Shown: one piece after another, positions 10,398 through 36,298 of the stretch
How positions within the stretch are numbered: position 1 is the first letter of the stretch
How the letters are laid out: the number at the start of each line of letters is the position of its first letter
Assembly (NCBI GenBank): GCA_028280505.1
Contig: JANQLO010000042.1
Span: forward strand, 1-36,298
From: Chromatiales bacterium
GTDB taxonomy: Bacteria; Pseudomonadota; Gammaproteobacteria; Chromatiales; Chromatiaceae
Length of the DNA: 36,298 bases
Direction: 5' to 3'
Position numbers and translations under genes: made by a program
The notes under the pieces: model-generated
Databases searched by the model: none
What the model was told of the DNA's origin: nothing
The model's input: only the letters and a program-made list of their open reading frames with translations

Positions 10398-13300
10398 ATG
10401 TACATAAAGGCTTTCTGGTTGCTGTGTATCTATCTTGCTACGGCGGCCACTGTCGGATCGGCGGCTGGGAACAACGATGCGAGGCAGTGGAAAGGGCACG
10501 AATCTGCGCAGATTCAACTCGCGTTCCTAGGCGATCTTCTCAGGGACTTGGGAGACGGAGTCGACAGGTTGCTAGAAGGCAATAATAAGGAGGGGGAGGC
10601 AGACACGAACGGAACCTCTGGAAGCAACTCTACCAGGTCAGCCAGTGAGCCGAAGAAGACCTACGAGTTCTTTGGGTTATCCCTAGAGACGCATCGAGAA
10701 ATACAAACCGCGCTGAACACGCTTGGCTACCCAGTGGGCACGCCTGATGGTATTCCTGGGCCCAAAACGCAGGCTGCAATCCGTGATTATCAGGCCCAAC
10801 ACAAACTTCCAGTAACCGGCGAGCCGTCGCTTGCGTTGCTGTCGCATCTGCGCGATTCATCGAACGCCAACTCGACTGGCAGTAGCACGTCCGGTGAAAC
10901 TGCCGAGATTGTCCCCGAAGACATCCTGCAATCGACGCTCGCCGATAACGCGAACTACGCTGAGTTTCGTGAACGATTCACGGTGCAAAAAGTTAACGAT
11001 ATCGTAGACTGGGTCGAAAAGCGTCCGTCACTAGACGTTCAGCTCATCAAGATCCACGTGTTGGCTCGAATCTACGGGCTGGAGCTCCCGAAGAAGTTCA
11101 GTGTTGGCCCCCGAGTATTGCTCGAAACCAGCCCGCTGAAACGGACCGATGAGGATTCGATCCAAGGGCTGTTGCAATTGACTATGCAGGAAATCGCGGA
11201 TGCCAACGGGGTGACCGTCGATGACTTGCGAATATTGAATGATGCACGAAATATCCATCAGATCCGCGAAGACGAGGATGCCGTTCGGAACGGCAATGTC
11301 GCGCGTGCAAAAGTGGCGGCGGATCCCCTGTGGGAATTGTTACCACCGCATAAGTCTGCATTTCACACGATCGGTTATGAGCCAGGCACGATTGAGAAAT
11401 GGGTGGCCAAGGACGGCAAAGAGCTGGTTTTCCAAAAGCGAAACGGCGAGTGGGTCTTCATCAAAGACGGGATAAACAGCGGGACATACAATTACGCGCA
11501 AGCCGATTCGGCGCACACGCTCCTGGATATATTCCCCTGGTTGCTTTGGGGTGCCGGCGGTAACGAGAAACTACGTTGGGAGCAGAGACTGGCGATAATG
11601 CGAGAGCAATTGGCGCCTTATTTGAAAGGTGTATTCGTCGAAACAACGTTTGATTTGGCCTCGACGAGCAAGGAGTTGGCTGACGCAGCGATCGATAGAC
11701 TAGTAGAGAGCGCGCAGACTGTGAAGTCTGGCGTGAAGCGGCTAGACGGGGTCATTGGTGCAAGCGATTCACTTACCAATATCAGGCAATTTCTCCAGGA
11801 AAACTTCTCGGATACCTACGACGCTATTTGGAACGCCGACGTTCCGGAAATAGCGACAAAAGAGGCCCAACTGCGGGTAGCTTATGTCGTTGCCAAGTTG
11901 GTACATACACCGATTGTGGGTGAGAAGCTGCTTGAGCGTATCAGTCTGGATAGTCACGAATTCGTTAAGTTTGCTACCCAGCAGCCTTCAGCAGCTTGGG
12001 CCGCCGCCGGTCTGGACTTCAGCAAGGGAGTTGTAAAAGGTGTCGCCGAAGAACTGATCGTATCAACGGCTGCGTCGCTCGTTACTGATGCACTTTTCAA
12101 GCTCGATCCTTGGAGCAAAGTGCCAGCAAAAATGGAAAACCCATTGCGAGCATTCGTCCAGGCTTCGATCGTAGAAACCTATGCCATTGTGCGGGCAGCA
12201 ACCAGCCCATCCGAAGCCCCCGAAATCGTTATTGGGAAGGTTTTTGATCGCTACTACGAGGTGATCAAGATCATTGAGGCATCACGATTGCTTGCGGCCG
12301 AGCAAGATCAGGGGTTGCTGGCTTCGGCTTTCGCTGCCGAGACGGCTGCACGACTCGTTACGCGCTATCCAACACAAAAAAGCAAGGAAGTAGCGGAGAG
12401 TTCGATGAACTCGATGTTGTCTACGTTGAAAGACATCGTTGGCAAGGACGACGAAGAAAAAGTCAAACAAATCATGTCTCTCGGTTATCAGGCCCTCGTG
12501 GTGCACTTCGAAGGCGACGCAATGTCGAAGGCTAAGCACATTAAGGAGATCAACGCGATCGCAGGCTCACCATCAAACATTAAACCATGGAGCGCGGTGA
12601 CCAATTTCATCGACTGGGCCACGCTGGTGGCTAATAAGGGCAAAGATGCACACTACCGTGCCGGCGAGATCGTCTTATCGTCAACGGCATTAGCCGATGA
12701 CGTACTCTTGGCCGACTCCAGACAAACCGCTAATCGGGAAAACGTCGAGAATCAAACGGGTGCAGCTGAATCTGAACAGACATCAAGCGCTAAAGTGACA
12801 CCGGAAAAGCATCGATCTGAGTCAGACAGTAGTGAGAATTGCAAGACAGAATTTATTAAACTTGCGGCAAACTCAGCACATTGCGGTTATCAGCTAGATA
12901 CCGCAGGAAACCTTCGTTTCAACCGAGAGGGTATACCTGGTCTAAGCCCAATCGTAGTGACTCATGCGTATCGAAACGGAAAATGGGAACCAAGTGCAGT
13001 GGCAACCAATCTGGTTCTTTTTCCATCGTCTCCGTCAGGGCGATATAGGGTCATCCAGGCCTGCGAAAACGACCTGTGCTGGGATGTTCGCCTCTTCGAT
13101 ACAGTAACCAAGAGAAACGAAAAGGTCTCTCTTGGGAAGTATGGCCCGAGAAGATGGATCAAATGGTCTCCAAGTGGTCGATTTGCGGTGCTCTATGACG
13201 ACAACGATGGCGGCTATTGGCTGCATGTCGTGGACATGGAGAGGCTTACTTCGTTCACATACCCAGAGGGGTATGATCATCTTTCGTCTATTGACTTGGA

Positions 13301-14705
13301 GAGCTTCAAGTGGATTGATGATGATGTGTTTTCAATCATTATGAACGACTCAATCAATGCTGCATTCAAGATTCAAAAGACCGGAGTTGCCTTAGCAGAA
13401 GTGAACGCAACAGAAGGCCAACTAGCGAATCTTGATTCGCCGAAAAAAGCTCGGGCGGAGAAACTTGAGAAGCTCTTGGATGCGGAATCTTTCGATGGTA
13501 TCTCGTCCAAAGAACTTAAAATGGTATTGTCAGAAGTCCGAGAAAAAGTAGAGCGCGACATTACGAGGAAGTTTGAGCTTCAGCAATCGGTTTTCGGAGT
13601 AAACGTACCACAACAAATCGCCAACGGGCGCAGGCAATTCTCACAAGCCCATCAAGTTGCGATCTCAAAACTAAGACAGAAGTATTCTCGATTGGCGCGA
13701 ATTGGATTAATAAAACACAAAGAAAACATTGTAGAACGCGCGATGATGAGCATGCCTGTCGGTAATGTTAGTTTTCAGGCTGAGATCACTAATGCTGCTA
13801 AGCCATATGTTGTTGAAGAGAAGCATGGCAGAGTCGAATTGTTGGTTGGGGTATATGGAATTGGCGAGGTTATCGCTGTTGAAAAGTTAAGGGAAGGCTT
13901 GTTTGAGATCGAATACTCGGTGAAGCCGTTCTTTTCCGATCTAGCAAAAGAGTTTGATGTTACAAGAGAAAAAGAGCGCGAAGAGAAAGAGGTCATCTTG
14001 ATCGAGGCGTTGGAAAAGAAGGAAGAAACGTCTGGGAGGTCTTGGGCCTTGTTCGACGGACCATTTGAGCAATCGACTCGATGGTGCCAAACACTCTCCT
14101 CGCTTAGATGCACGACCCTGATTACACGTAAAGACTCGGAGCGGGTGCGGGTGATTGATTTCAAAGCACCGAAAGATGCGCCCCCTAAGTATCGCAGAAT
14201 GGAATCCTCAGAAATCCCGAAAACAATCGGGGAGCATCTGAAGAAGTTTCATAAAAGAAGATACGAAAAAATGGACTTTGAGAGGGTTAGGAGACTAAAC
14301 GGTTGGGATGGTGACGTAAAAGAGAATACCCCGATCCCTTTTCCTGATTCAAAACGTCTTTATTTCGCTTTCGATGGATATACGCCAGACGAGTTTGCGC
14401 TTCAACCCGAGAAGTACTCTTTCGCGGAATCGGATTGCAGGGATCAGATTGTTAAAGGAATCGACAACGGTGCGGTTTGTGCAGTTCAGAAATCAGGTTA
14501 TCGAATGGGTATCAAAGAGTTTCTTCGGAATCATTGGTATTTGCGGCGACATCCGATCATGAGGGATGACATCATCGACTACAAAACGAAATGGAAGAAG
14601 CCTTCTGTCGAAAAGTTCAAAGCAATGAATGGTCTCGATTCCAAATCTGTGGTCTCAAATCGCTACTACAAGATGGCGCAGCGCGGCACCGAGTCCGCAG
14701 AGTGA
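10398..14705 (+). CDS. Giant secreted protein with peptidoglycan-binding domain
   Basis: This 1435-residue protein starts at the ATG at 10398 with AAAGGGA upstream. Residues 1-24 are a signal peptide. After a Ser/Asn-rich linker, residues about 89-150 form a PG_binding_1 domain (IQTALNTLGYPVGTPDGIPG, IRDYQAQHKLPVTG). Residues about 170-780 are mostly helical, with a GYEPGTIEKWVAKDGKELVF segment near 320. Residues about 850-990 are strand-rich with repeated W-x-PSGR/SPSGRYR motifs (FPSSPSGRYRVIQA, IKWSPSGRFAVLYDD), like blades of a TolB/WD-type propeller. Residues about 1010-1100 and 1170-1200 are charged coiled coil. From about 13.3 kb onward the DNA is visibly more AT-rich. No homologue is recognised. 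It shares a peptidoglycan-binding module with the CsgG-like lipoprotein, so a periplasmic structural role is a fair inference. Confidence 0.7.
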   Translation: MYIKAFWLLCIYLATAATVGSAAGNNDARQWKGHESAQIQLAFLGDLLRDLGDGVDRLLEGNNKEGEADTNGTSGSNSTRSASEPKKTYEFFGLSLETHREIQTALNTLGYPVGTPDGIPGPKTQAAIRDYQAQHKLPVTGEPSLALLSHLRDSSNANSTGSSTSGETAEIVPEDILQSTLADNANYAEFRERFTVQKVNDIVDWVEKRPSLDVQLIKIHVLARIYGLELPKKFSVGPRVLLETSPLKRTDEDSIQGLLQLTMQEIADANGVTVDDLRILNDARNIHQIREDEDAVRNGNVARAKVAADPLWELLPPHKSAFHTIGYEPGTIEKWVAKDGKELVFQKRNGEWVFIKDGINSGTYNYAQADSAHTLLDIFPWLLWGAGGNEKLRWEQRLAIMREQLAPYLKGVFVETTFDLASTSKELADAAIDRLVESAQTVKSGVKRLDGVIGASDSLTNIRQFLQENFSDTYDAIWNADVPEIATKEAQLRVAYVVAKLVHTPIVGEKLLERISLDSHEFVKFATQQPSAAWAAAGLDFSKGVVKGVAEELIVSTAASLVTDALFKLDPWSKVPAKMENPLRAFVQASIVETYAIVRAATSPSEAPEIVIGKVFDRYYEVIKIIEASRLLAAEQDQGLLASAFAAETAARLVTRYPTQKSKEVAESSMNSMLSTLKDIVGKDDEEKVKQIMSLGYQALVVHFEGDAMSKAKHIKEINAIAGSPSNIKPWSAVTNFIDWATLVANKGKDAHYRAGEIVLSSTALADDVLLADSRQTANRENVENQTGAAESEQTSSAKVTPEKHRSESDSSENCKTEFIKLAANSAHCGYQLDTAGNLRFNREGIPGLSPIVVTHAYRNGKWEPSAVATNLVLFPSSPSGRYRVIQACENDLCWDVRLFDTVTKRNEKVSLGKYGPRRWIKWSPSGRFAVLYDDNDGGYWLHVVDMERLTSFTYPEGYDHLSSIDLESFKWIDDDVFSIIMNDSINAAFKIQKTGVALAEVNATEGQLANLDSPKKARAEKLEKLLDAESFDGISSKELKMVLSEVREKVERDITRKFELQQSVFGVNVPQQIANGRRQFSQAHQVAISKLRQKYSRLARIGLIKHKENIVERAMMSMPVGNVSFQAEITNAAKPYVVEEKHGRVELLVGVYGIGEVIAVEKLREGLFEIEYSVKPFFSDLAKEFDVTREKEREEKEVILIEALEKKEETSGRSWALFDGPFEQSTRWCQTLSSLRCTTLITRKDSERVRVIDFKAPKDAPPKYRRMESSEIPKTIGEHLKKFHKRRYEKMDFERVRRLNGWDGDVKENTPIPFPDSKRLYFAFDGYTPDEFALQPEKYSFAESDCRDQIVKGIDNGAVCAVQKSGYRMGIKEFLRNHWYLRRHPIMRDDIIDYKTKWKKPSVEKFKAMNGLDSKSVVSNRYYKMAQRGTESAE

Positions 14706-23032: not shown

Positions 23033-23216
23033 ACCGGTTTCGCTGCCACCGAAAGGTGGCGTATGCGGTCGTGGCGTTGCCGCTAGATGGCTGAAACTAA
23101 TGGCAAAAAAGTTTGGTTCCTGCGCCAAGACAGCGCATTGTCCGGCCGTTGATCCGTCTGTAGTGAACCGATGTGGGGCGTTTTTGTAGGGCTTGCGACA
23201 AGCGATCAAAAGCGGC

Positions 23217-23234
23217 TTGTCATAGTTGTGACAA
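23217..23234. promoter_or_regulatory. NifA upstream activator sequence (nifL/rnfA)
   Basis: TTGTCATAGTTGTGACAA contains the NifA consensus TGT-N10-ACA (23218-23233) within a palindrome with 6-bp arms. It is centred about 85 bp upstream of the predicted nifL start from the sigma-54 promoter at 23285-23299, the usual working distance. It sits in the divergent nifL/rnfA region and could serve both directions. Confidence 0.85.
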
Positions 23235-23284
23235 TTACCGGCGTTTTGCGCATTTTAGATCCCATGAGGCGGGCTTGGGCGGGG

Positions 23285-23299
23285 TGGAACGGAAATTGC
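23285..23299 (+). promoter_or_regulatory. Sigma-54 promoter of nifLA
   Basis: TGGAAC-GGAAA-TTGC matches the -24/-12 consensus TGGCAC-N5-TTGC with one mismatch and correct spacing, followed by T. The predicted transcript starts near 23311, about 45 bases before the nifL ATG. With the NifA box upstream, this means nifLA is positively autoregulated by NifA. Confidence 0.85.
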
Positions 23300-23355
23300 T
23301 CGCCTAAGTCCCGAGAGCATTCGAAGATCGTTACCACTACGGAGAACGTCGGCAG

Positions 23356-26662: not shown

Positions 26663-26678
26663 TGTAATCTTGCCGACA
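26663..26678. promoter_or_regulatory. NifA upstream activator sequence (nifB)
   Basis: TGTAATCTTGCCGACA fits TGT-N10-ACA. It overlaps a wider inverted repeat, ATTGTCG/CGACAAT with an 11-base loop. The centre lies about 95 bp upstream of the start predicted from the sigma-54 element at 26739-26753. Confidence 0.75.
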
Positions 26679-26738
26679 ATGCCGATGTCGGCTCAGAAAA
26701 CACCATTTTATTCATAGGCTTAGATCGATATCCTTCTT

Positions 26739-26753
26739 AGGCATGCGGTTTGC
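26739..26753 (+). promoter_or_regulatory. Sigma-54 promoter of nifB
   Basis: AGGCAT-GCGGT-TTGC keeps the essential GG at -24 and GC at -12 with ten bases between them, followed by A. The transcript would start near 26765, about 45 bases before nifB. The first base (A for T) and the sixth (T for C) deviate from consensus. Confidence 0.75.
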
Positions 26754-26809
26754 ATCGAGTCTTCCCGAACGGTTTGTCCAGCCCCCCGGGGCGCAGTTTG
26801 GGAGACGCT

Positions 26810-28828: not shown

Positions 28829-29247
28829 CGCTTTATTTTTATGAAAAACCCGGTTGTGTCGGCAATGCCGGTCAAAAGGCGCTGTTACGCCGGCATGGTT
28901 GTACCTTCGAAGTCCGCGATCTCCTGACTGAGCCGTGGACCGCGGAACGTCTGCGCCCGTTTTTCGGGACCAAGCCGGTGCCGGACTGGTTCAATCTGAG
29001 CGCGCCCCAGGTGAAGTCCGGCGAAGTGCTCATTCATAAATTGGATGAAGGGCAGGCGCTGATGATGATGTTGCACGAGCCCTTGTTGATCCGGCGACCG
29101 TTGATGCAAGTCGATGAGCTGCGTCAGTCCGGTTTCGAAGACGGCCCGGTGCTTGCCGCACTGGGTGTTCAACTGGACCCCGCGGTCGATCTTCAGTCCT
29201 GTCCGATGGGCGATGAGCCTGAACCGTCCTGCGGAGAACCCGCATGA
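28825..29247 (+). CDS. nifO: ArsC-like nitrogenase-associated protein (NifO type)
   Basis: This 140-residue protein of the ArsC/Spx thioredoxin-fold family is of the kind found in nif clusters. The N-terminal LYFYEKPGCVGNAGQKALL aligns with the ArsC active-site loop, having a single Cys11. The motif FEVRDLLTEPWTAERLRPFFG and the late LLIRRPLMQV (the ArsC arginine region) are also present. The start is a GTG at 28825, overlapping the small frame before it, and the end overlaps the flavodiiron gene (ATGA at 29244-29247). In Azotobacter, NifO affects molybdenum partitioning; the same role here is by analogy. The Cys-rich tail (SCPMGDEPEPSCGEPA) is unusual. Confidence 0.85.
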   Translation: MTLYFYEKPGCVGNAGQKALLRRHGCTFEVRDLLTEPWTAERLRPFFGTKPVPDWFNLSAPQVKSGEVLIHKLDEGQALMMMLHEPLLIRRPLMQVDELRQSGFEDGPVLAALGVQLDPAVDLQSCPMGDEPEPSCGEPA

Positions 29248-30527
29248 ACGCCGCCATCGACGTCTCGCGCCATCGCGATGCCGTCGAGTTCGCCGACGGC
29301 GTTTACTGGATCGGTGCGCTCGATCCGACCTTGCGTACCTTCGACATTATTCTGAGCACGGCCAACGGCACCACCTACAACGCCTATCTGGTGAAAGGCA
29401 GCGAGGGTGTCGCGGTCATCGATACGGTCAAGGAAAACTTCAGCGACGAGTTCTTTGCCCGTCTCGAATCCGAGGTGGACTATGCCGACATCAAGGTGAT
29501 CGTACTCAATCACCTCGAGCCGGATCATACGGGCGCCTTGCCGGAACTGATGCGCCGTGCGCCTCAGGCCAAGCTGTATATCTCACAACGCGCCACCTCG
29601 ATGCTGAAGGCATTGCTGCGGCCGTCGGCCGGCGTGTTCGAATACACCACGGTCAAAACCGGCAACAGTGTGAGCCTGGGCGATCGCCGTCTGCGTTTTT
29701 TGCATACGCCCTTTCTGCATTGGCCGGATACCCAGTGCACCTACCTCGAAGACGAGGCGGTGTTGTTCTCCGGCGACGTGTTCGGTTGCCACTATTGCGA
29801 CAAGCGGTTGTTCAACGACCTGGTCGGTGACTTTCGTTTTTCCTTCGATTACTACTATGCGCACATCATGCGGCCGTTCAAGAAGCATGTGATGGATGCG
29901 TTGAAGCTGATCGAGCCGTTGAAGCTGAAGCAGATCGCGCCGACCCATGGTCCGATCCTGCGCGAACGGCCCCGACGCTACGTCACGCATTATCGCGAGC
30001 TGTCGACGTCCAGTCTGTCGGGCGAGATCGGCGGTGACGATCAATCGATGGTGATTTTCTACATGAGTTCCTACGGCAACACCGCGCGCATGGCCGAAGA
30101 GATCAGCGCGGGCGCGGGTGATGTCGAGGGCGTGCGGGTGTCGCTGTACGACCTGGAAGGCGGCGAGACCGAGCCTTTCGTCGATCTGATCGAAGAGGCC
30201 GACGCCCTGTTGTTCGGGTCGCCGACCATCAATGGCGATGCGGTCAAGCCGGTCTGGGATTTGTTGTCGTCACTGGCCGTGGTCAATCTGAAGGGCAAGC
30301 TCGGCGGCGCCTTCGGCTCCTACGGTTGGAGCGGCGAGGCGGTCAAGATGATCGAAGACCGCATGCGTGGTTTGAAAATGCATATCCCGCGCGAAGGTCT
30401 GCGGGTCAAATTGATTCCCACCGACGAAGAGCTCGACGACTGTCGGGGCTTCGGTCGGTTCATTGCCGAAACTTTGGTCGGCAAGTCGCCGCAAAAGGCG
30501 GTGATCGATTTTGCCGATCTCGCGTGA
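29244..30527 (+). CDS. fprA: Flavodiiron protein, FprA type
   Basis: Flavodiiron proteins reduce oxygen or nitric oxide at a di-iron site fed by FMN. The 427-residue protein has a metallo-beta-lactamase domain with ligands His90, Glu92, Asp94 and His95 (HLEPDHTG), His159, Asp178 (FSGDVFG) and His235 (APTHGPILR). A flavodoxin domain runs from about residue 265 to 420, with the FMN-phosphate loop SSYGNTAR and the segment GSYGWSGEAVK. This is the two-domain form without rubredoxin. A NifA-dependent fprA is known in Rhodobacter capsulatus. In this operon it may scavenge oxygen or take part in electron transfer; which one cannot be read from the sequence. The start overlaps the nifO-like gene by four bases. 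Confidence 0.9.
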   Translation: MNAAIDVSRHRDAVEFADGVYWIGALDPTLRTFDIILSTANGTTYNAYLVKGSEGVAVIDTVKENFSDEFFARLESEVDYADIKVIVLNHLEPDHTGALPELMRRAPQAKLYISQRATSMLKALLRPSAGVFEYTTVKTGNSVSLGDRRLRFLHTPFLHWPDTQCTYLEDEAVLFSGDVFGCHYCDKRLFNDLVGDFRFSFDYYYAHIMRPFKKHVMDALKLIEPLKLKQIAPTHGPILRERPRRYVTHYRELSTSSLSGEIGGDDQSMVIFYMSSYGNTARMAEEISAGAGDVEGVRVSLYDLEGGETEPFVDLIEEADALLFGSPTINGDAVKPVWDLLSSLAVVNLKGKLGGAFGSYGWSGEAVKMIEDRMRGLKMHIPREGLRVKLIPTDEELDDCRGFGRFIAETLVGKSPQKAVIDFADLA

Positions 30528-33321: not shown

Positions 33322-33792
33322 ATGAAAAAAGCGCTTTTTTTGATGTTCTCGCATGCCTTGGTCGGGCTCGTCGGTTTTGCGGCCGGCATTTATTTGTTGC
33401 CCATACTGACGGCGCCACCGCCGCCACCGGACGAGATGGTCGAGGCGGTGGCAAACAAGGCCTTGTTCAGCGGCGAATTTCGACGCGATCTTGCCGGTAG
33501 CGATGCCTTGCACTGGGGTGAGGGAAGCATTTCGATCGGACGCGACAAAGTGGCCTTGCAAGGCGAGATTGCGCCGGGTCCGGACTACAAGCTGTATCTT
33601 TCACCGGGCTTTGTCGAAACCGAGGAAGAATTCTTAGGTTTGAGATCTCAGATGGTGCGCGTCGGCGATGTCAGGACTTTCAAAAACTTCGTCGTCAATA
33701 TGCCGCCTACAATCGATCCCGCCGCATTCGATACCGTTATTGTTTGGTGTGAAGCCTTTGGTGAGTTCATCACCGCCGCGAAGTATCGCTAA
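33322..33792 (+). CDS. Membrane-anchored DM13-domain protein
   Basis: This 156-residue protein starts at the ATG at 33322 after AAGGACAC. Residues 5-29 form one membrane helix or uncleaved signal anchor, followed by a Pro-rich linker. Residues about 60-156 fit the DM13 domain (LHWGEGSISIGRDKVALQGE, YKLYLSPGFVETEEEF, then VIVWCEAFGEFITAAKY with its conserved Cys). DM13 domains are proposed to act in redox or electron transfer, but this is not well established. It is convergent with the Fe-S oxidoreductase gene, with only 13 bases between the two stops. Confidence 0.75.
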   Translation: MKKALFLMFSHALVGLVGFAAGIYLLPILTAPPPPPDEMVEAVANKALFSGEFRRDLAGSDALHWGEGSISIGRDKVALQGEIAPGPDYKLYLSPGFVETEEEFLGLRSQMVRVGDVRTFKNFVVNMPPTIDPAAFDTVIVWCEAFGEFITAAKYR

Positions 33793-33805: not shown

Positions 33806-35179
33806 TTAACGGGTCTTGGGCAGAATGCTCTGTAAGAGCAGTGCCAAATGCTCGGATGCGCGACCGGTACCTTCGCGAATTTGTTCGCGACAGGAGAAGC
33901 CGTTGGCGACGATTCGTGCTTCGGGCTGTTCGCGCACGGCGGGAAACAAGGCGGCTTCGCCCATTTGCATTGCCAGATCGGTATGTTCGGCCTCGACACC
34001 AAAGCTGCCGGCCATGCCGCAGCAGCTCGATTGCACCACAGAGAAGTCGAGGTTCGGTATCTGTTTCAGTACGCGGCGCATCGCCTTCATCGCGCCGGCT
34101 GCCTTTTGATGACAATGACCGTGTACCAGCACGGTCGTCGATTGTGCCGGCGGTGTCTCGAACGCGATGTTGAAACGTTTGGCCGTTATCTCGCGCGCGA
34201 TGAACTCCTCGAACAAGAGTGCCTCGGACGCGATTCTGTTCGCCGGTTCGCCGAGCCCGAGAAAGGCGTAGTCGTCGCGAATCGCCAGCAGACATGACGG
34301 CTCCAGGCCGATGATTTTGCATCCGGCCTCGACGTGCGGGAGCAGGGCATCGATCACACGCTGCGCCTCTTCTCTGGCCTGATCGATCAGGCCATTGGCC
34401 AGAAAGGTACGACCGCAACATAGCGGACGTTGGGTCTCCATGTCGTTCGATGCGGGGCGCGCAATCCTGATCTGGTAGCCAGCGTGCGACAGCACCTCGA
34501 TGGCCGCATCGGCGATCTCCGGCGTGAAACGATCGATGAAGGTGTCGATGAACAACACCAGTTCACCGTTTTGTTGAACATCGTTTTCGGGTCCTGTGAC
34601 ATCGGCGTTATGGTTGTTGAAAAAGCTGCGTTGCGTTGGCACCGGTAGTTGTCGATTTGCGCTAATCCCCAGCAGATGTTCACCGAGGCTTGCGAGCCAG
34701 GGAGAACGGTTGCGGCGTTGTGTGATGTTTCTCAACGCTGGATAGCGATGCAGCAGACGGGGCAGCGCGGCGAACAGGCGGGTACGTTTGTCCGCCGGGC
34801 GTTGTCGATAACGTTGCGCCAGGTATTCGACCTTGAGCATCGCCATATCGACTTCGCTTTCGCATTCGCGCTGGCAGCCCTTGCAGGCCACGCATAACGC
34901 CATGGCCTCGGCGAGTTCGGGATTGGCGAGGGCGCCCTTCGAATCGGTATCGTTGAGCAGGCGTTTCAGCAGGCGAACGCGTCCGCCGGTCGAAAGATTG
35001 GGATTGCCCGAGATTTTGAAACTTGGGCACATGATGCCGTTGTTCTCCCGCTCACAGCCGCCGCTGCGGATGCACACGGCCACGGCCTTGGCGAAATCAC
35101 CGCCATGCTTCGGGATGTCGGCATAGGCATCGCCCATGCCGGCGTCTTGGTAGCTCGACCAATCGAGTACCGGTTTCAT
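33806..35179 (-). CDS. CCG-domain Fe-S oxidoreductase (YdiJ/GlcF C-terminal type)
   Basis: The 457-residue protein corresponds to the iron-sulfur half of FAD/Fe-S oxidoreductases such as YdiJ. Cluster segments are CIRSGGCERENNGIMCPSF at about 36-54 and CVACKGCQREC at about 96-106, where the usual CP is CE. Two cysteine-rich CCG modules follow, with LCCGRTFLANGL near residue 254 and SSCCGMAGSFG near 390; HGHCHQKA lies between them. Such domains bind [4Fe-4S] or non-cubane clusters and move electrons between a flavoprotein and a quinone or cofactor. The FAD-binding half is missing; the gene before it is an unknown protein. It lies 18 bases downstream of that gene in a predicted NifA/sigma-54 operon. 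Confidence 0.85.
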   Translation of the reverse strand: MKPVLDWSSYQDAGMGDAYADIPKHGGDFAKAVAVCIRSGGCERENNGIMCPSFKISGNPNLSTGGRVRLLKRLLNDTDSKGALANPELAEAMALCVACKGCQRECESEVDMAMLKVEYLAQRYRQRPADKRTRLFAALPRLLHRYPALRNITQRRNRSPWLASLGEHLLGISANRQLPVPTQRSFFNNHNADVTGPENDVQQNGELVLFIDTFIDRFTPEIADAAIEVLSHAGYQIRIARPASNDMETQRPLCCGRTFLANGLIDQAREEAQRVIDALLPHVEAGCKIIGLEPSCLLAIRDDYAFLGLGEPANRIASEALLFEEFIAREITAKRFNIAFETPPAQSTTVLVHGHCHQKAAGAMKAMRRVLKQIPNLDFSVVQSSCCGMAGSFGVEAEHTDLAMQMGEAALFPAVREQPEARIVANGFSCREQIREGTGRASEHLALLLQSILPKTR

Positions 35180-35197
35180 GTGGATATGATTAGACGG

Positions 35198-35758
35198 TTA
35201 AACGGCGCCCCAGCTTTCGCGTTTGACGTCGGTCGTGGCGCCCAATGCGTCGGCGAACGACTGCTCCGCATACTTGGGTTTGTAGCTTTTCAACTCGTCG
35301 CTCAAGGTCACGATTTTGTCGGCGGCCGACTGGCCCTTGAAGTCGCTCTTTTCCAGGCCGAGTTCGTCGATCATCTCGTTCCAGGGCACGCCCTGCACCA
35401 ACGGAATCAAGACGAAGTCGGCACCGCCCAGCTCGACCTTCATTGCATCACCGATGTCGACCACATAGATCATGGCCTGCATGTCCGACGCGAAGTCATC
35501 CCGGTATTTGTCGACGAAGGTCTGCAACAGTTCCAGGCGATCGATCGCGCCGACCACCAGCTGCAGCTTTTCGCCGGCCAGCAGCGTGGCGCCGCGCATG
35601 ACCTCGACCGGGGGTTTGGTATGGCCCTTGTCGTCGGCGATCTCGCCTTGGATCAGCACCAACTCGCCACGGTATCCGGCGATACCTGCCGTGCCGGTTG
35701 CCTCGAGGAAGTTGGTGTTGAACAGAAGGCCGTTGTCTTTGTAGGAATCCAGCAACAT
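35198..35758 (-). CDS. Unknown protein, first gene of predicted NifA-controlled operon
   Basis: From the ATG at 35758 this is a 186-residue soluble protein; upstream in-frame codons to 35818 would run into the promoter and are rejected. Features seen are LLFNTNFLEATGTAGIAGYRGELVLIQGE at the N-terminus, a central AMIYVVDIGDAMKVELGGADFVLIPL and a polar helical C-terminus. There is no cysteine, signal peptide, membrane helix or known motif. It is followed 18 bases later by the CCG Fe-S oxidoreductase gene. A sigma-54 element at 35803-35817 and a NifA box at 35889-35904 lie upstream, so it is probably made under nitrogen-fixing conditions. I do not recognise a family. Confidence 0.75.
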   Translation of the reverse strand: MLLDSYKDNGLLFNTNFLEATGTAGIAGYRGELVLIQGEIADDKGHTKPPVEVMRGATLLAGEKLQLVVGAIDRLELLQTFVDKYRDDFASDMQAMIYVVDIGDAMKVELGGADFVLIPLVQGVPWNEMIDELGLEKSDFKGQSAADKIVTLSDELKSYKPKYAEQSFADALGATTDVKRESWGAV

Positions 35759-35802
35759 TGATTTGTCCCGTTGAGTTGGTTGAAGCCTGATAGCTGGCTT
35801 TC

Positions 35803-35817
35803 GCAAGATGCATACCA
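35803..35817 (-). promoter_or_regulatory. Sigma-54 promoter of unknown/Fe-S oxidoreductase operon
   Basis: The minus strand reads TGGTAT-GCATC-TTGC, with invariant GG and GC ten bases apart and two mismatches to TGGCAC-N5-TTGC. The predicted start near 35792 leaves a leader of about 35 bases before the ATG at 35758. Confidence 0.75.
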
Positions 35818-35888
35818 ATTAAGGGGCGGTTTCCAGGCCTTGCCGGAACAAAGACTTAGACTGTTCTTTTGATGTTGCCGTCGATCGA

Positions 35889-35904
35889 TGTTGCAAACAC
35901 GACA
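35889..35904. promoter_or_regulatory. NifA upstream activator sequence (operon at 35758)
   Basis: TGTTGCAAACACGACA fits TGT-N10-ACA. Its centre is about 105 bp upstream of the predicted sigma-54 start of the leftward operon, close to the spacing seen at nifL and nifB. Confidence 0.7.
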
Positions 35905-36238
35905 TCAATGAGGAGTTCGGCATGTTCGTAGTCGGACAAGGGACCGTTCTTTTTGCTCAATTCGTTGAAGTCAACGTTGGGTGTGAGGATTGGGTCGAGG
36001 CTTTTTCTGCCTCGTACTCGATCGCATTTGCCCCGTTGATGGCGCATGCCGATTTCCGATACGTGAGGTATCGGATCGGAGACGTATCATTACTTACTGT
36101 TTGATTTGATCTGGCGCAAAGTCGGTATCGTATTGTTGTGAGAGTTTTTCCACGGCTTTCGGATCGGGTGCTCGTCGTTGATCGACGACACGCGTACCTG
36201 ATCAACAACCGACAACGTTAGGGAGGACGCATCGCGTC
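35905..36238. other. Intergenic stretch without a convincing gene
   Basis: Short frames exist on both strands (a 63-codon minus frame ending at 35856 and a 60-codon plus frame from 35922), but they overlap each other or the NifA box and have no motif or ribosome-binding site. No GG-N10-GC element was seen on the plus strand between the NifA box and 36238. Confidence 0.45.
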
Positions 36239-36298
36239 ATGGCAAGACAAGCATCGAACGCGCTTCCCATAAGAAGCCGCCCTGCACATGTAACGCTA
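36239..36298 (+). CDS. Possible start of a gene cut by the window edge
   Basis: An ATG at 36239 follows GGGAGGA (36221-36227) at about 11 bases and stays open for 20 codons to the window end (MARQASNALPIRSRPAHVTL). Too little is present to name a family. Confidence 0.3.
   Translation, partial: MARQASNALPIRSRPAHVTL

Follow-up and report, generated by a model that had tools for sequence, protein, structure and literature searches.

Near one end of the window (the whole stretch of DNA analysed here, one entire contig of 36298 bases), two genes on the minus strand follow what looks like a NifA-controlled promoter, which raises the question of whether they belong to the nitrogen-fixation (nif) regulon and what they might add to it. 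The first gene encodes a 186-aa protein (UP, 35198-35758, minus strand) that contains no cysteine and belongs to an unnamed, diazotroph-linked family, related by gene order to PST_1324 (see below). The second, separated from it by 18 bases and completing the two-gene operon, encodes a 457-aa stand-alone Fe-S/CCG protein (FS, 33806-35179, minus strand) resembling the Fe-S half of GlpC/YdiJ-type dehydrogenases, with a predicted fold like that of LutA, HdrB and EtfD. An alternative start of UP, a TTG opening a 206-aa frame, would fall inside the promoter; the first methionine (M1) is invariant in the family alignments, which supports the ATG at 35758. Since the window is the entire contig, the sequence past position 36298 cannot be read.

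At its 3' end the operon abuts a convergent gene for a DM13-domain protein (33322-33792; Pfam name, electron transfer DM13), upstream of which the window scan found no composite NifA promoter. Elsewhere in the window, nifL, nifA, nifB and draG were recognised above curated cut-offs, and Rnf genes are present. The nif cluster also holds a flavodiiron protein gene (29244-30527), recognised by its domains, with homologues of 84-86% identity at three other loci (L039, L043 and L174); its product is a possible candidate for an oxygen-scavenging partner. A further gene (10398-14705) encodes a 1435-aa protein whose sole Pfam match is a peptidoglycan-binding domain, and the same region has a CsgG-domain gene and another whose FlgT_N match falls below the cut-off.

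Upstream of UP, a NifA activator box of the form TGT-N10-ACA (TGTCGTGTTTGCAACA, 35889-35904, minus strand) is followed after 71 bases by a sigma-54 (-24/-12) element of the form GG-N10-GC (TGGTATGCATCTTGC, 35803-35817, minus strand), with a predicted transcription start near 35791 and 44 bases between the element and the UP ATG. A second TGT-N10-ACA box (TGTCCGACTACGAACA, 35923-35938, minus strand) also lies upstream of UP. The sequence-only reading had placed the first box and the element at normal spacing before a two-gene operon and had seen the same geometry before nifL and nifB; both observations were confirmed. On the plus strand, nifL is preceded by two NifA boxes (23185 and 23218) and a sigma-54 element at 23285 (23185-23300 overall), and nifB by a box at 26663 and an element at 26739 (26663-26754). 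The window was scanned for every GG-N10-GC site with a home-made sigma-54 weighting (maximum score 20.4), a composite promoter being a site that scores at least 18 and has a NifA box 50-220 bases upstream. Only three such promoters were found, those of nifL (23285), nifB (26739) and UP-FS (35817), which together hold five box-promoter pairs. In 200 dinucleotide shuffles of the window the mean was 0.09 pairs (maximum 2), and a laxer threshold of 16.5 returned the same five pairs, while the shuffles then averaged 0.835 (maximum 4). Because the shuffles gave on average far fewer pairs than the five observed, the promoter site of UP-FS lies beyond chance expectation, and a fortuitous promoter before UP was rejected.

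The distribution of UP offers a second view of its link to nitrogen fixation. UP is present in 34 of 195 genomes of the order sample, 11 of 369 of the class sample and 12 of 299 of the phylum sample, and the GTDB contig collection yielded 215 confirmed relatives, the best 80 of which include Azotobacter, Stutzerimonas, Azoarcus, Methylomonas, Methylobacter, Thiothrix, Thiodiazotropha and Chromatiaceae genera. With nifB scoring above its curated cut-off in 95 of the 195 order genomes and 32 of the 369 class genomes, it occurs in 33/34 UP genomes of the order and 11/11 of the class (Fisher 4e-11 and 3e-13, values in which shared ancestry is not corrected), so that UP accompanies nif in related genomes and its homologues do not fall mostly in non-diazotrophs. 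In the phylum sample the nif link was judged by genes within about 9-10 kb, not by a nifB search, and nif genes lay within that distance of UP in 9 of 11 genomes besides the window's own; one of the two remaining loci is a 4-kb contig (L211), and at the other (L213) UP is preceded by a sigma-54 site and by NifA boxes. Since 62 of the 95 nifB-positive order genomes do without UP, the protein appears dispensable and accessory.

In the order and class samples, both UP and FS are confined to nif-bearing genomes with a single exception, a draft genome (G136) in whose assembly neither nifB nor nifD was found; either the nif genes were lost or the assembly has a gap there. In this draft UP and FS (L035 and L184) each have a NifA-like box and a sigma-54 match upstream. 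A separate 8.8-Mb genome of the same phylum (G742) carries two copies of UP on one contig (L219 and L221), each with a sigma-54 match (score 17.7) about 56 bases upstream.

The promoter recurs before orthologues of both genes above chance, though not in every lineage. We compared 84 UP loci (the best 80 of the 215 relatives, the window and three plasmid loci), many of them close relatives, so that the lineages are not independent. A sigma-54 element lies at -40 to -115 before UP in 33 of them and is joined by a NifA box in 26, against means of 0.29 and 0.0 in 100 dinucleotide shuffles and 0 and 0 on the reverse complement. The full site pair is thus kept at these 26 loci and is missing, at the thresholds used, from the other 58; 16 of the 58 lie directly behind pnfA. 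For FS, 27 loci were considered, leaving out the duplicates L230 and L231 and the long-frame L235 and including five close relatives from one genus (L180-L184), with slightly wider limits than for UP (-40 to -140, box 40-250 bases upstream). An own sigma-54 element precedes FS in 11 of the 27, with a NifA box as well in nine, five of these nine from one genus; means over 300 single-base shuffles were 0.08 and 0.0, respectively.

In part of the Chromatiaceae the order of the sites before UP is reversed, with the NifA box downstream of the best sigma-54 match. This arrangement occurs at L046-L048, L051, L056-L058 and L061 and at the matching L068, L069, L072, L075, L079, L082 and L083; the TGT-N10-ACA palindrome is found some 97-122 bases upstream of UP and the best sigma-54 match at about -196 to -303. 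At L049/L077 there is a distant sigma-54 match and the box is absent.

Promoter, recurrence before homologues, co-occurrence with nifB and gene neighbourhood all point the same way, and judged from these sequence features the UP-FS pair is very probably a member of the nif regulon, as the sequence-only reading had proposed.

The neighbourhood of UP in other genomes connects it with an earlier study. Among the best 80 of the 215 contig relatives, UP lies directly behind pnfA on the same strand in 16 loci, Pseudomonas and Azotobacter included, nifH usually flanking it on the opposite side; in 12 loci the gene before it is rnfH. In Pseudomonas stutzeri A1501, PMC2820453 gives PST1326 as nifH, PST1325 as pnfA and PST1324 as a conserved hypothetical gene; the order in S. 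stutzeri KOS6 (L106), nifH, a pnfA homologue and UP, agrees with it, and on this ground, gene order and not comparison with the A1501 sequence, the UP family is identified with PST_1324. Homology together with a place next to pnfA/nifH was found in the named Stutzerimonas and Azotobacter loci. The same paper reports that PST1324 was 25.99-fold up under nitrogen fixation and that ammonium shock brought it down to a ratio of 0.15 (PMC2820453). The UP family is thus already known as a nitrogen-fixation-induced hypothetical, and the word 'undescribed' in the sequence-only reading has to be withdrawn for a gene already printed as such beside pnfA (PMC2820453).

That study further describes a pnfA mutant that kept 23% of nitrogenase activity, the defect showing itself at microaerobic oxygen levels and, when nitrate was present, also under anoxia; no PST_1324 mutant was found in the sections consulted (PMC2820453). 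A list from 2024 names PST_1325 a SIR2 family protein and PST_1324 a conserved hypothetical (PMC11332353), and the pnfA homologue of one tandem locus (L088) matches SIR2_2. In the window's genome a different contig carries pnfA (76% identity), transcribed divergently from nifHDK and equipped with a sigma-54 match (17.9) and a NifA box of its own. The major nif cluster of A. vinelandii starts at Avin_01360, according to PMC10581106, and from this position we would guess that Avin_01360 is UP. No sigma-54 match of its own was found before UP in the Pseudomonas and Azotobacter loci scanned. Within the accessible portions of the open-access literature searched, we found no description of the UP fold, of a nif-linked stand-alone FS branch or of a UP-FS operon, and none of the papers found could be recognised as dealing with a stand-alone CCG protein linked to nif.

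The UP sequence itself offers few handles. It has no match at E<=1 in Pfam and NCBIfam, its best PHROG reaches E 0.24 and its best PDB sequence E 0.19; a profile built from 12 members retrieved no PDB chain, and when the 12 members were scanned against Pfam only two families came up, both at sub-threshold scores. The description of the 186-aa protein as one of no known family therefore holds for Pfam, NCBIfam, PHROGs and the PDB. The AlphaFold model is confident (pLDDT 94, pTM 0.89); compared with 350,542 PDB chains it gave no match at E<=0.001 (best E 8.3e-3, TMq 0.29), and compared with viral models (BFVD) no significant match.

UP contains no cysteine and one histidine, and among 81 family sequences no cysteine or histidine is invariant; the invariant residues include R30, G31, P50, W126, K137, D139, K141, D147 and K148. 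A metal or haem protein with Cys/His ligands is thereby rejected, and because the family is cysteine-free in this member and has no invariant Cys or His, UP probably has no redox function of its own; for this highly conserved protein, a part in binding, protection or gating is likelier than one as a redox carrier. A phage protein was rejected as well, the best PHROG reaching only the E-value given above. Plasmids gave five matches, distant relatives annotated as hypothetical on four Paraburkholderia plasmids and one Methylococcus plasmid. A plasmid protein was likewise rejected: the three loci read (two Paraburkholderia, one Methylococcus) show UP beside nifHDK, which is oppositely transcribed, and in two of the three a truncated globin adjoins UP.

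FS is more readily placed. Its Pfam matches are Fer4_8 and CCG, and the CCG domain (PF02754) scores 25.8 bits against a cut-off of 20.6, which assigns FS to the CCG-domain Fe-S electron-transfer proteins. Fourteen cysteines are invariant in all 23 aligned members (C36, C42, C51, C96, C99, C102, C106, C254, C255, C296, C356, C386, C387 and C430). At position 39, where GlpC has a cluster-ligand cysteine, all 23 have serine, and the first cysteine of CCG domain 1 (position 213) is kept in four only. Identity to E. coli GlpC is 25% and to YdiJ 24%. FS was rejected as a GlpC equivalog, with 169.8 bits against a cut-off of 278 (NF008369) and 102.8 against 279.9 (TIGR03379), and as a YdiJ D-2-hydroxyglutarate dehydrogenase (NF049975), with 129.2 against 1350 bits for a 457-aa protein that covers the Fe-S half only. 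The claim of an Fe-S subunit lacking its FAD half is borne out, FS being a stand-alone protein with no FAD partner in the operon. Nor does the operon include glpA or glpB, the partners of glpC. A search of PDB sequences with FS gave nothing useful. The FS model, built from 4 sequences, is of modest confidence (pLDDT 69); its Foldseek matches were LutA (E 1.7e-9, a PDB entry that is an integrative model), M. smegmatis EtfD (7e-6) and HdrB (2.4e-5), at aligned identities of 14-19%.

At E<=1e-40, FS was matched in 23 of the 195 order genomes, or 22 after removal of a YdiJ-like 1011-aa frame with 37% identity (G087), partial matches in G113, G119 and G140 being kept; nifB is found in 21 of the 22. 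Matches in the class sample (23/369) fall into six stand-alone proteins (at least 49% identity, frames of 454-482 aa), all in genomes with nifB and UP, and 17 long frames (933-1178 aa, 31-46% identity), none of them in a nifB-positive genome and all dropped from the FS count. In the class sample, therefore, the nif-linked FS branch stands cleanly apart from the long-frame family.

Among the 27 FS loci, a flavodoxin gene lies directly before FS in three (L176, L179 and L186; those of L176 and L186 scored as long-chain flavodoxins), in two of which the flavodoxin gene is itself preceded by a NifA box and a sigma-54 site. At L233 a homologue of the window's flavodiiron gene takes this place. A gene for a SagB-like nitroreductase (about 550 aa) adjoins FS at L073, L178 and L185; the window's genome encodes one (44% identity) on another contig (G000:C34), which was rejected as a NifA target for want of a site pair in the stretch scanned.

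Whether the two families belong together was examined among nifB-positive genomes. In the order sample UP is present in 15/21 genomes with FS and 18/74 without (p = 1.5e-4), and in the class sample in 6/6 and 5/26, respectively (p = 5e-4); shared ancestry is not corrected in the co-occurrence tests of UP, FS and nifB, and many counted loci are close relatives. UP and FS thus co-occur more than nif alone predicts in both samples. The tandem itself was found in four genomes: the window's, L125, L088, where about 440 bases separate the genes, and L211, which lies outside the class of the window's genome. Because FS adjoins UP in only 1/34 order genomes with UP and 2/80 contig loci (best 80 of 215), the tandem is an exception, and because it was found in only four genomes, the pair is not a widely conserved module. 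The sequence-only reading of the pair as a module accordingly survives for the co-occurrence of the families and not for their adjacency.

We consider it rather probable, from these sequence data, that UP-FS is an accessory nif operon in which FS would pass electrons to or from flavodoxin-type carriers and the cysteine-free UP would support nitrogenase or FS. NifA would bind at the 35889-35904 box, perhaps also at 35923-35938, and sigma-54 RNA polymerase would transcribe the operon once NifA contacts the -24/-12 element. FS would be an electron-transfer protein dedicated to nif, composed of a ferredoxin-like N-terminus, with cysteines that suggest two Fe-S clusters, and a two-CCG body, related to YdiJ/GlpC-type FAD/Fe-S dehydrogenases through their Fe-S half. 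Taken together, its conserved cysteines, its LutA/HdrB/EtfD-like fold and the flavodoxin and flavodiiron neighbours of its gene suggest that FS exchanges electrons with FMN carriers that serve nif; the partner would most likely be of the flavodoxin type, NifF or the flavodiiron protein of the cluster, and the electrons may feed nitrogenase or an O2-scavenging branch. Taken by itself, the proposal that FS acts on flavodoxin-type carriers has, in our estimate, just under an even chance. UP would be a small, cofactor-free folded protein aiding nitrogenase or FS, for example as a binding or protection factor. The redox or electron-transfer role that the sequence-only reading gave to the pair would thus apply to FS, as a prediction, and probably not to UP, which has no cysteine. 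A more specific version seems improbable to us. In it, UP-FS would serve nitrogenase as a dedicated electron-delivery module next to Rnf and FixABCX: FS would draw electrons from either the quinone pool or a soluble dehydrogenase to reduce NifF or the flavodiiron protein, and UP, with a fold not seen in the PDB, would dock or gate the transfer.

The rarity of the tandem also fits a different account, in which UP and FS are two independent genes of the NifA regulon brought together by shuffling, UP working with the pnfA/nifH region rather than with FS. The 16 loci with a pnfA homologue directly upstream of UP suggest this, as do the separate contig and separate NifA/sigma-54 sites of pnfA in the window's genome, the few loci in which FS adjoins UP and the nine FS loci with a NifA promoter of their own; it is harder to reconcile with the co-occurrence of FS and UP beyond nif in both samples and with the recurrence of the tandem outside the order and once outside the class. 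We regard such independence as tenable, at somewhat less than even probability. The kinship of FS to GlpC and YdiJ could alternatively mean that a split FAD-dependent 2-hydroxy-acid dehydrogenase (YdiJ/GlcDEF type) uses it as Fe-S subunit, the FAD subunit being encoded elsewhere and the operon oxidising, for example, lactate or glycolate for reductant. The 31-46% identical relatives in presumably FAD/Fe-S-fused frames, in 17 genomes without nifB, and six FAD-oxidase_C matches in the window's genome are compatible with this; the two-gene operon, however, contains no FAD gene, the six class-level orthologues of FS are frames of stand-alone length, and the stretches around three of the six FAD-oxidase_C matches, when scanned, had no NifA/sigma-54 pair, by which a nif-linked FAD half in the window's genome was rejected for those three. 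A split dehydrogenase is therefore, in our view, an unlikely origin of the operon's function.

The promoter might also be real and the operon serve oxygen protection only, FS feeding the flavodiiron O2 reductase and UP shielding nitrogenase, with no electrons passed to NifH. FS directly follows a flavodiiron gene at L233, the window's nif cluster contains such a gene, a truncated globin precedes UP at L032, L033, L215 and L224, and the phenotype of the P. stutzeri pnfA mutant is oxygen-dependent (PMC2820453). Against an exclusive role of this kind, FS follows flavodoxin genes in 3/27 loci and occurs in Chromatiaceae. These are largely anaerobic phototrophs. The pnfA mutant, moreover, also lost nitrate-supported fixation under anoxia (PMC2820453). 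Protection from oxygen as the sole function strikes us as unlikely.

Electron routes to nitrogenase and accessory genes for efficient fixation limit the transfer of nif to new hosts. UP is a testable candidate in this respect, a diazotroph-linked protein without a Pfam or NCBIfam family or a matching PDB fold, and FS is another, an Fe-S protein that goes with nif and whose gene order links it to flavodoxin and flavodiiron genes. Since UP homologues occur in the well-studied genera Azotobacter, Stutzerimonas and Azoarcus, the question can be answered there.

Compared with known systems, FS shares with GlpC and the Fe-S half of YdiJ, the closest NCBIfam models, two Fe-S motifs and CCG domains; unlike these, it stands under a nif promoter. 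LutA, HdrB and EtfD are CCG-domain electron-transfer proteins whose fold matches the FS model, whereas no Lut, Hdr or Etf partner genes were noticed adjoining FS in the window. Rnf and FixABCX are accessory electron-transfer functions of nif regulons, and FS differs from both in being a subunit of neither. PST_1324 of A1501 comes closest to UP, being of the same family by gene order and reported as induced under nitrogen fixation (PMC2820453); UP of the PST_1324 type follows pnfA, whereas in the window UP stands behind a NifA/sigma-54 promoter of its own, with FS downstream.
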